NCBI RefSeq assembly: GCF_944388875.1
Contig: NZ_CALXKQ010000031.1
Coordinates: 1-33,537 of the forward strand
Source of the DNA: an uncultured Brachyspira sp.
GTDB lineage: Bacteria; Spirochaetota; Brachyspiria; Brachyspirales; Brachyspiraceae
Reading direction: 5' to 3'
Length of the DNA: 33,537 nt
Each line of letters starts with the position of its first letter. Position 1 is the first letter of the stretch. The position numbers and the translations under genes are program-made. A model generated the notes under the pieces. It saw only the letters and a list, made by a program, of their open reading frames with translations, made no database searches and had not been told where the DNA came from. This document shows, piece after piece, positions 248 through 22,272 of the stretch.

Positions 248-391
248 TGAAAATATGATTTTTTCGCATTTTTTACAATATATTTTCATAAAAAAATATA
301 TATAGATGTTAAAATAACAGTTTTATTATTTATACGAGAAAAATATACAGGTTTATATAAATTGTATTTTGGCTAATTTTTTTAATAAAAG

Positions 392-701
392 CTTGGGCGG
401 GTGTTAACATTTCTATATACATATTAAATATAATTAAAATAAATATTTCAAATTTAGTAAAAAAGAATAGAGGGAGGGGTATGTAATTAAAATTTTATTT
501 ACACACCCCGCCCATCATTTCTTATAATTTAATTAGTCATTTTTGTTTTTCGTTTCTTTGCTGTTTAAATAGATATTTCTGTACCCGCCCTAGTGTTTTT
601 TAGATTTAAAGCGATTATTCACGCACGCTTAACTTGTTTTTTTAAAATAAAAAAATTAATAAAAGCATTTAAATTATAAATAAAAATCTATTAACCGTGC
701 G
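392..701. repeat. Palindromic intergenic repeat element, copy A
   Basis: GC-rich blocks stand out in an otherwise AT-only spacer and recur at 21855-22272 and partly at 20184-20228. In order: CTTGGGCGGGTGTTAA (392-407), a conserved AT stretch, GGGAGGGGTATGTAA (472-486), an inverted arm TTACACACCCCGCCC (499-513), GTACCCGCCC (591-600) that mirrors the first block, then TCACGCACGC (619-628) and TTAACCGTGCG (691-701), whose CGCACG/CGTGCG cores are inverted. No ORF spans it. The remainder of 102-722 (outside this element and the leader region) is plain AT-rich DNA in which I see no gene. Confidence 0.7.
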
Positions 702-722
702 TTTATTTATACGAAAAAAATT

Positions 723-7360: not shown

Positions 7361-7453
7361 TAGAAACCTCATAATTTACTAAAATGTAATTTTTACTAAA
7401 ACCGAAAATATTTAAGAATATCAATAATAAATTTTAGATGACATATTAAAATG

Positions 7454-7525
7454 AGCGGGCGAACGGAATCGAACCGTCATCTTTAGAGTGGAAGTCTAAG
7501 GTAATAACCATTATACGACGCCCGC
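7454..7525 (-). tRNA. tRNA-Gly (anticodon UCC)
   Basis: A 72-nt cloverleaf on the minus strand: 7-bp acceptor stem GCGGGCG/CGCCCGC, anticodon stem TTAGA/TCTAA enclosing CTTCCAC (anticodon TCC at 7490-7492), and T-arm ACGG-TTCGATT-CCGT. The discriminator base is T and the CCA end is not encoded. Confidence 0.96.
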
Positions 7526-19859: not shown

Positions 19860-20183
19860 TTTTAATTTATTTATATTATTTAAAAGTATATATTAGTTTT
19901 ATTTATAAATAAAAATTAGTAATAATAAAATGCAAATATGCACTAATATATAACGAATTTATTACTGAATAATATTATTTTAAATCATTATATAATAATA
20001 CATCTATATAGAGACTTGTTACAAAACTAATTTTATTTATTAATTTTGTGAACTATCATCCATGCTTACAAAGTCTGTTTTTGGTGTTGTCAGTTGAAAT
20101 ACTGAATATTTATATATTAAAATAGTAATTTATATAATATTTTCAAGTATTTTTTAAATAAGTCTAATATTAAATTTAATAAA

Positions 20184-20228
20184 AATTTCAAATTTAGTAA
20201 AAAGAAATAAAGGGCGGGGTATGTAATA
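20184..20228. repeat. Palindromic intergenic repeat element, partial copy B
   Basis: A stretch ending AAAGGGCGGGGTATGTAAT, preceded by the same AAATTTAGTAAAAA block as in copies A and C and in the same orientation. The outer GC-rich arms are missing. The surrounding spacer 19860-20343 has no gene that I can see; 20006-20029 resembles a short sequence at 23748-23768. Confidence 0.65.
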
Positions 20229-20274: not shown

Positions 20275-20343
20275 TATGTATATCAATTTTTTCTAATTTA
20301 TATTATAGTGTATGCACTAAAATATTTTAAAGGAAGTAATAAT

Positions 20344-21741
20344 ATGGGACTTTATGTTGTAATTAACATCATAATACTGCTTCTTATAATCGGAGTATTA
20401 TATGCAATGCAGAAAAAGCATATTAATTTTACCTATAGGGTATTAAGTGCTTTAATTTTAGGTTTGGCTTTAGGTTTTGTACTTAGAACAATTTATGCTT
20501 CTAATATGGAAGTAGTTAATCAGACTATAGTTTGGTACAATGTTGTGGGAAACGGTTATGTAAGGCTTTTACAGATGCTTGTTATGCCTCTGATATTTGT
20601 ATCTATTACTATGGCTTTAATTAATATTAAAGGCGACAGCAATGTGGGGAAAATGACAATTATAATTATAGCTGTATTAATGATAACAACAGCAATATCT
20701 GCTTTAGTTGGTTTCTTGACTGCTAAAGGATTTGGATTGGATGCTTCTAAATTGGAATCTATAGTGGGAGATATATCTAAAGGAGCTTCTAATTATGAAG
20801 GTAAATTAGAGCAGTTCTCTTCAAGACCAGTACCTCAGCAATTATTGGATATTATACCAACCAACCCTTTTGCAGCTTTAGCAGGAATGGGAGGCTCTCC
20901 TACACTTTCTGTTGTATTTTTTGCAGCTTTAATAGGTTCTGCTGCTTTAGGTCTTAGAAAGAAAAAAACTGATATTTTTGATTTCTTTTATAAAATCATG
21001 CAGTCTTTGCATGATGTCATTATGAAAGTAGTAGCTTTTGTTATGAGATTAACACCATTTGGAGTATTAGCACTTATGGCTAAATTTATGGCCACTAGTG
21101 ATTTAAATGCATTTGCTCAATTAGGTCAGTTCCTGATTGCATCTTATGTATCGATATTTATAATGCTCATAGTTCATAGTATAATACTTATTATATTCGG
21201 ATATAATCCTATAAAATACTATTCTAAATCATTCGCTACTTTGGCATTTGCTTTTTCATCAAGAACAAGTGCTGGTACTTTACCTTTAACAGTTTCTACA
21301 TTAAAAGATAAAATGGGAATATCAGAAGGAGTTTCTAACCTTTCTGCTTCTCTTGCTGTTACTATAGGTCAAAACGGATGTGCTGGTATTTATCCTGCAA
21401 TGGTTATAGCTATGATTGCTCCTACTATGGGAATTAATCCGCTTGAGCCTTCTTTTTTAATAAAATCTATAGTCATAATTGCTATAGGAAGTTTTGGTAT
21501 CGCTGGAGTTGGAGGAGGTGCTACAAATGCTGCTTTGATAACACTTTCGGCTTTAGGTTTTCCTGTTGGTTTAGTTGCTGTGCTTCTTGGTATTGAACCT
21601 TTAATTGATATGGGAAGAACCATGCTTAACGTTAATGATGGTATGATTACGGCTGCTGCAACTGGAAAAATACTTAAAGAAGTTGATATGGATAAATTTA
21701 ATTCCAATGATACTGGAACGAGTGAAGCAGAGGTCATGTAA
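20344..21741 (+). CDS. tcyP: Sodium/proton:cystine (dicarboxylate-family) symporter, TcyP-like
   Basis: A 465-aa inner-membrane transporter of the DAACS family, closest in feel to TcyP/YdjN L-cystine symporters (about 463 aa). About eight membrane helices plus two re-entrant hairpins are expected. Key parts: LLQMLVMPLIFVSI, a long extracytoplasmic loop (about 125-175), SSRTSAGTLPLTVSTL (first hairpin, serine-rich), TIGQNGCAGIYPAMV and GIAGVGGGATNAALITLSALGFPVGLVAVLLGIEPLIDMGRTMLNV split here into the second hairpin and last helix (substrate- and Na+-binding). The frame is open 12 codons further upstream, but ATG 20344 has AAAGGAAG eight bases before it. Stand-alone gene closed by a terminator; lies between repeat copies B and C. 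Confidence 0.85.
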   Translation: MGLYVVINIIILLLIIGVLYAMQKKHINFTYRVLSALILGLALGFVLRTIYASNMEVVNQTIVWYNVVGNGYVRLLQMLVMPLIFVSITMALINIKGDSNVGKMTIIIIAVLMITTAISALVGFLTAKGFGLDASKLESIVGDISKGASNYEGKLEQFSSRPVPQQLLDIIPTNPFAALAGMGGSPTLSVVFFAALIGSAALGLRKKKTDIFDFFYKIMQSLHDVIMKVVAFVMRLTPFGVLALMAKFMATSDLNAFAQLGQFLIASYVSIFIMLIVHSIILIIFGYNPIKYYSKSFATLAFAFSSRTSAGTLPLTVSTLKDKMGISEGVSNLSASLAVTIGQNGCAGIYPAMVIAMIAPTMGINPLEPSFLIKSIVIIAIGSFGIAGVGGGATNAALITLSALGFPVGLVAVLLGIEPLIDMGRTMLNVNDGMITAAATGKILKEVDMDKFNSNDTGTSEAEVM

Positions 21742-21802: not shown

Positions 21803-21854
21803 TAATAAAATTTATTTTAATTCCCACCAAAGCATTATTTAAATTTTGGTATTT

Positions 21855-22272
21855 ACTCACCGCACGCAGAATATAATTAAAAATATAAACATATTTGCAA
21901 TTCAAATTTTTTTTATATTAAAAAACTTTATTAACCGTGCGTTAATAAGAATCTCAAATCTAACCAAAACTTGGGCGGGTGTTATACATACTAAATATAA
22001 TTAAAATAAAGATTTAAAATTTAGTAAAAAAGAATAAAGGGCGGGGTATGTAATTAATTTTTTAATTTACTTACATTTTCCCACCCTTTAGATTTTCAAT
22101 CTTTTTTTGTTTTTTTAATGTTATTTTCTTTTTTATTTTATTCTGTTATTTTAACTGCCCACCCAAGAGTTATTTAAATTTTGGGATTTACTCACGCACG
22201 CAGAACGAAATTTAAAATTGACTGATTGTGAATTAGAATTTCAATTATTTATAAAATTTATTTAACCGTGCG
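21855..22272. repeat. Palindromic intergenic repeat element, copy C (most complete)
   Basis: Three nested units. First, CGCACGC (21861-21867) to TTAACCGTGCG (21931-21941). Second, CTTGGGCGGGTGTTA (21970-21984) to TAACTGCCCACCCAAG (22152-22167), enclosing AAAGGGCGGGGTATGTAA (22037-22053) and its imperfect inverse TTACATTTTCCCACCC (22070-22085). Third, TCACGCACGC (22192-22201) to TTAACCGTGCG (22262-22272). ATTTAAATTTTGG precedes both CGCACGC blocks (21839-, 22172-). No ORF. It fills almost all of the 606-bp gap between the two convergent genes. Confidence 0.75.

Follow-up and report, generated by a model that had tools for sequence, protein, structure and literature searches.

A six-box intergenic repeat unit of Brachyspira and its position relative to the replication origin

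Three intergenic spacers in a contig of an uncultured Brachyspira sp. (NZ_CALXKQ010000031.1) carry G+C-rich blocks that recur together with their inverted partners, and they raise the question of what kind of element these blocks form. The window, i.e. the whole stretch of DNA analysed, is 33,537 nucleotides long. An unnamed, non-coding family of nested repeats had been proposed from the sequence of the window, to be explained either as folded RNA or as a non-autonomous mobile element. The family was borne out by our analysis, and the two explanations are taken up below along with others.

Layout of the unit and its copies

The blocks in the window are real and lie far above chance expectation, and all three copies are present where the original prediction had placed them. 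Profiles made from the window copies resolve three modules, which make up a unit of ~338 bp: arm AB with its two GGGNGGG boxes comes first, arm ba with its two CCCNCCC boxes second and H (CGCACG…CGTGCG) last. The two G-rich boxes of AB are CTTGGGNGGGTG and AAGGGNGGGGTATGTAA, and ba carries their reverse-complement partners. AB and ba are of different types (GGGCGGGGTATG vs GGGTGGGAAAATG), and the unit is therefore polar.

All modules of the window were found on the forward strand. By profile search copy 1 consists of an AB arm at 381..489 (box A, CTTGGGCGGGTGTTA, at 392-406 and box B, GGGAGGGGTATGTAA, at about 472-486), a ba arm at 496..610 with boxes b and a as the reverse-complement motifs, and an H module running from CGCACG to CGTGCG at 618..703. 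The spacer to its left holds a long unbroken A run (224-242), possibly a slippage site or a sequencing artefact. Copy 2 is a truncated AB arm (20175..20227) keeping the box B half only, upstream of an SDF-family symporter gene (20308-21741). Copy 3 is preceded by the decayed end of a ba arm (21813..21850) that runs into its first H module, the profile match covering 21813-21944 at profile positions 81-210. This left H module (21851..21943, by profile search) is followed by an AB arm at 21955..22056 (box A core from 21970, box B core GGGCGGG at 22039-22045), a ba arm at 22068..22181 (CCCACCC at 22080-22086 and 22158-22164) and a right H module at 22189..22272 (CGCACG at 22195-22200, CGTGCG at 22267-22272). 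The serS gene of the window has its nearest named matches at 97% (B. innocens, B. hampsonii and others).

The unit is abundant in the genome it comes from. Further copies had been expected there, and the 310-bp copy matches 55 places at E <= 0.001. The arm model finds at least 150 places, the H model 79 distinct places among the 150 matches listed, and arm and H matches chain into at least 81 clusters. The pattern GGGYGGGGTATGTAA occurs 38 times, against 0 for a reversed control pattern. We found no prior description of these repeats in the literature searched, which covered few subscription papers.

The unit is found single, truncated or in tandem. Arrays have the order AB-ba-H-AB-ba-H with a period near 338-345 bp, and 26 of the 31 scorable unit-H neighbour pairs of the own genome agree in polarity, while isolated copies are cyclic permutations (H-AB-ba, AB-ba-H, ba-H-AB) or truncations of the unit. 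The fixed order and orientation first read from the window thus hold inside it but not genome-wide, where both orientations are found although the unit itself is polar. Adjoining array units can be 99.6% identical (over 491 bp in locus L028), and hence recombination is the likely means by which the units multiply. In variant arrays (L070:14-2087 and L069:1641-2921) the repeating part is the ba arm by itself, at intervals of about 150-156 bp. Nine contigs of the own genome (C2, C4, C7, C9, C16, C18, C20, C36 and C45) start or stop within or beside unit arrays, and both ends of C45 (6,449 bp) carry an H module; the repeats therefore seem to break the assembly.

The family is spread across most of the genus. 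The exact B motif was found in 20 of 25 Brachyspira genomes and in none of the 16 other genomes of the order or phylum searched. With a longer DNA query all 26 Brachyspira genomes match at E <= 0.001, three of them (G001, G003 and G019) weakly and seldom. Clear copies are few or absent in these three, and the sites are therefore not required genus-wide.

Tests for RNA and conservation of the boxes

The RNA reading is not supported for these units. In the window only the tRNA at 7454-7525 reaches the gathering score of Rfam, with nothing on the units, and a further Rfam search gave one chance-level match, inside the symporter gene. Compensatory changes in the arms had been named beforehand as the check on which folded RNA could fail, and the result came out against it: among 42 oriented units 87.2% of the stem cells are paired vs 87.5% in shuffles, and 2 pairs are changed on both sides vs 3.4 in shuffles. 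Among 82 units, agreement between the central base of GGGNGGG and its partner was seen in 12 of 55 scorable cases for box A and 5 of 42 for box B; each arm retains a base of its own, which makes such agreement rarer than in shuffles. RNAalifold gave covariation terms near zero and only short G+C clamps. The H stem has a weak trend at best, with a covariation score of 0.109 vs 0.096 that is reached by 30 of 500 shuffles. The proposed nested palindromes need one correction: what is paired is the short boxes, and the AT-rich DNA between them is not.

The boxes are conserved far more strongly than the DNA around them. We compared G009 and G007 over syntenic stretches in 87 alignments of at least 600 bp, dropping those with fewer than 300 non-module bases and scoring box sites only where the box is intact in at least one species. 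On this basis 8 of 365 box sites differ (2.2%) vs 501 of 2806 other module sites (17.9%; P = 2e-19). As the genome sheds G and C (170 of 460 G or C positions outside the boxes differ), the conservation of these G+C-rich boxes is strong evidence. Upstream of the symporter gene, in up to 8 species, differences were found at 4 of 90 H-box sites vs 89 of 490 inside H, and at 4 of 95 G-box sites vs 41 of 350 between boxes. Some orthologous H boxes have decayed, e.g. downstream of the symporter gene in L101, L103 and L105.

The spacing of the boxes is nearly fixed. The distance from CGCACG to CGTGCG is about 74 bp (73-75 bp in 112 of 129 cases), and the other distances are centred on 77 bp from G box to G box in both arms, 36.5 bp from the outer G box to the H box and 43 bp from B to b, where the counts leave out boxes with point changes and a broken unit can escape the profile. 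In the G009/G007 alignments we observed 0.127 indels per substitution in the modules vs 0.301 in other non-coding DNA (P = 4e-10), which shows that the linkers vary in sequence but less in length.

Gene context and signs of mobility

The elements do not keep to one kind of spacer. Among 48 element-bearing spacers of the own genome, 17 lie between convergent, 18 between tandem and 13 between divergent genes, and stop codons lie at a median distance of 37.5 bp from the element (52 flanks), start codons at 140.5 bp (44 flanks). The closeness to stop codons and the T-rich DNA after the b box fit a transcribed 3'-end element, in which the B-b and A-a palindromes serve as bidirectional terminators or mRNA stabilisers in the manner of REP/BIME. 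We consider this unlikely: the tandem and divergent spacers, the lack of covariation in the units compared and the ordinary terminators that adjoin some copies, e.g. the conserved one after serS, all speak against it, and transcription does not account for the centring on the origin described below. After serS, where the element stands in other species, L011 (at about 7425-7442) and L014 (at about 7400-7420) carry just a G-rich run, GGGGCGGGYGGGCGGGG, that may be a remnant.

Copies turn over among species and occur at gene-order breakpoints. Loci are gained and lost between species, and among 11 loci of the symporter gene, which has several unrelated sets of neighbours, modules flank the gene upstream at 10 and downstream at 8, with 7 loci counted in both groups. 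At the serS and dehydrogenase-gene sites, we found no target duplication and no clean empty site; element-bearing and element-free versions of these sites mostly differ in their neighbour genes, and hence no empty site or target duplication is readable there. Downstream of the dehydrogenase gene, L090 and L092 (two relatives) carry a second, different G+C-rich intergenic stretch that is repeat-like. The isolated copies, being permuted and truncated, do not have the fixed ends of a MITE or insertion sequence.

No partner for mobilisation was found. A search of PDDEXK_2 genome-wide and of neighbouring ORFs, some of them named by Pfam, gave no linked recombinase. PDDEXK_2 has 26 matches in the own genome. 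Four of them have a listed module no more than 1 kb away and one more has it at 1.2 kb; three out of this group of five sit at contig ends. These Rpn nucleases are mostly unlinked to modules, and we rejected them as a general mobilising partner; one Rpn-like example is L082:1952-2857 on contig C3. Genes inside the B-b loop (an ankyrin gene in L029, the symporter in the window) were considered as gene cassettes and, though striking, set aside, since most loops contain no gene and those found are not related to one another. The units of an array mostly adjoin directly with no gene between them, which is not the layout of an integron cassette array. Plasmid, phage and viral collections gave no copies. 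With no target duplication, clean empty site, linked recombinase or copy in those collections, the non-autonomous mobile element that had been suggested was not demonstrated by our searches.

Four small lipoprotein-like genes (L027:2142-2828, L030:1074-1784, L034:593-1234 and L077:535-1032) are paralogues with near-identical signal peptides and upstream DNA (about 91-96%) and variable C-terminal parts, and each has a repeat array at a distance of a few hundred bases. An inverted repeat with no transposon nearby is described as flanking tva(A), a gene for pleuromutilin resistance in B. hyodysenteriae (PMC6018095). Compared by description only, it resembles our units as an inverted repeat beside a Brachyspira gene without a near transposon.

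Position on the chromosome and a possible role

The units are concentrated in the half of the chromosome around the fitted replication origin. The origin was fitted in five complete chromosomes from third-position GC skew with the coding strand as a covariate (178-234 ORFs per genome), and four of the five origins come from this skew fit alone (20-21 stretches each). The fit puts the origin at 1.46-1.76 Mb in G004 (loosely), 1.46-1.62 Mb in G010 and 1.82-1.92 Mb in G011, and near coordinate 0 in G009 and G007. Two genome papers of 2009 and 2010 placed the Brachyspira origin at dnaA (PMC2650404, PMC2897892), and others place it away from dnaA (PMC3532143, PMC3163572); the record of the B. intermedia PWS/A chromosome (3,304,788 bp) is reported to start at a GC-skew origin unlinked to dnaA (PMC3163572). 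The exact B motif shuns the dnaA half in three complete chromosomes. Taking dnaA as the origin, this would be clustering at the terminus, a reading that we rejected since both the skew fit and the literature locate the origin elsewhere.

We counted loci in the origin half of all five chromosomes after merging those within 2 kb. The exact motif gave 39 of 45 in G004, 35 of 40 in G009 and 26 of 31 in G007, and the arm model 33 of 39 in G010 and 22 of 33 in G011. The circular mean of the loci lies within 0.065 chromosome lengths of the fitted origin in all five. Centring is weak in G011 (one-sided P 0.04), where the mean position, 1.90 Mb, sits on the origin. The five species share ancestry and hence are not five independent tests. 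In G007 and G009 the distance from the origin is 174-183 kb for the window's symporter gene and 308-328 kb for its dehydrogenase gene.

A second count, made with profile modules and without the exact motif, gave a similar picture. Its 60 evenly spaced stretches were drawn in equal numbers (20 per genome) from G009, G007 and G004, the last with its origin put at 1.6 Mb, inside the fitted range. With rising distance from the origin the modules form 19.5, 16.4, 10.9, 2.6 and 0 loci per 100 spacers. Near the G009 and G007 origins, out to about 60 kb, each of the 11 stretches read carries 4-12 modules, and six further 20-kb stretches at the terminus of G009, G007 and G010 carry none. At the G011 terminus one stretch has two modules, and at the origin one of two stretches in G010 and one of two in G011 have no module. 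Box B lies on the leading strand in 22 of 48, 20 of 31 and 22 of 41 cases, which is no replication-strand bias, and an oriented KOPS- or Chi-like site was rejected on this ground.

Could the DNA around the origin, gene-poor, accessory or otherwise tolerant of repeats, simply collect any repeat without function? The turnover of copies among species would fit. We regard this as the least probable explanation, and a quite improbable one, since the non-coding fraction is roughly flat across the same five distance classes (0.152, 0.144, 0.132, 0.152 and 0.117), as are the numbers of spacers, and the boxes are constrained. In addition, the control family PDDEXK_2 leans to the terminus half, with 6 of 22, 6 of 18 and 4 of 13 members in the origin half of three relatives.

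The main alternative to the binding platforms proposed below is a selfish repeat of the satellite or MITE kind, non-autonomous and spreading locally about the origin. Such a repeat would amplify in tandem and spread by local recombination from an ancestor near the origin, its boxes being recognised by the spreading enzyme, and origin-symmetric rearrangements would have kept its copies at distances close to the origin; rearrangements symmetric to origin or terminus have been published for the genus (PMC3532143, PMC3163572). A regional insertion bias could yield the same origin-centred map. The near-identical neighbours in arrays, the isolated copies in all cyclic orders of the three modules and the copies at breakpoints, as around the symporter gene, are well explained in this way. 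The constraint is not: dead copies are not expected to show selection on boxes and linker length in old orthologues. The searches for target duplications, clean empty sites, a linked recombinase and copies in plasmid, phage and viral collections also brought nothing in its favour. We consider a selfish repeat a serious possibility, though a doubtful one.

We propose tentatively, and somewhat short of an even chance, that the units are composite binding platforms for a protein complex that organises the origin half of the chromosome. The boxes would be bound as duplex DNA by one or two sequence-specific proteins, which would assemble into a complex of fixed geometry; at 10.5 bp per turn, the box centres are about 7, 7.3, 3.5 and 4.1 turns of the helix apart. 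Many such complexes would mark the origin half and may serve its organisation, its segregation or the timing of division, as Noc, SlmA and ParB sites do elsewhere. Units would multiply and vanish by recombination between tandem and dispersed copies, and single sites could thus turn over while the regional pattern persists. No ParA or ParB was found among the ten proteins read at the G009 origin.

We know of no system that has the architecture of these units. REP/BIME, ERIC and MITE repeats are intergenic, palindromic, multi-copy and modular and often lie near stop codons, as the units do, but the units differ from them in their strong origin centring and fixed box spacing, and no fixed ends with target duplication or linked transposase were found. 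The parS consensus is a 16-bp ParB palindrome (TGTTNCACGTGNAACA), which the unit boxes do not resemble, and no exact parS-like match was found in 226 loci, the window's units being checked by eye. ParB-parS centromeres resemble the units in clustering around the origin (PMC12284271). ParB has been reported in Brachyspira (PMC9712426), so parS may exist elsewhere, apart from the units.

The closest likeness in distribution is to sites that organise chromosomes. Noc sites of Bacillus subtilis and SlmA sites of E. coli and V. cholerae are described as dozens of dispersed duplex-DNA sites absent from the terminus region (PMC4331003, PMC6549158), and the units resemble them in dispersal and, weakly in G011, in terminus exclusion; the likeness is one of site distribution. 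Noc and SlmA sites are short single motifs over most of the chromosome, whereas each unit is a ~338-bp composite in which six boxes keep a fixed spacing; the units often stand in tandem, and their density, unlike that of those sites, drops steadily from the origin. SegB sites of the Sulfolobales, tied to segregation and chromosome organisation, number in the tens and are enriched near replication origins (PMC12284271), as the units are, but they are 13-bp palindromes mostly inside genes while the units are composite and intergenic.

A bolder form of our proposal, which we hold with more doubt, is that a graded field of composite nucleoprotein platforms marks the origin half as a new, spacing-coded centromere-like or nucleoid-occlusion site, bound by a protein family new to chromosomes, in a genus whose origin is separated from dnaA. 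As the repeats break assemblies and sit at gene-order breakpoints, they matter for the genome evolution of these animal pathogens. Few organisms are known to have site systems centred on the origin, and these systems are based on short palindromes. If our reading is true, selection has kept a six-box platform of near-fixed spacing around the origin in most members of a genus of gut spirochaetes, and chromosome position would be marked there in a new way; the platform would also offer an independent landmark for the disputed Brachyspira origin and a defined bait for the binding protein.
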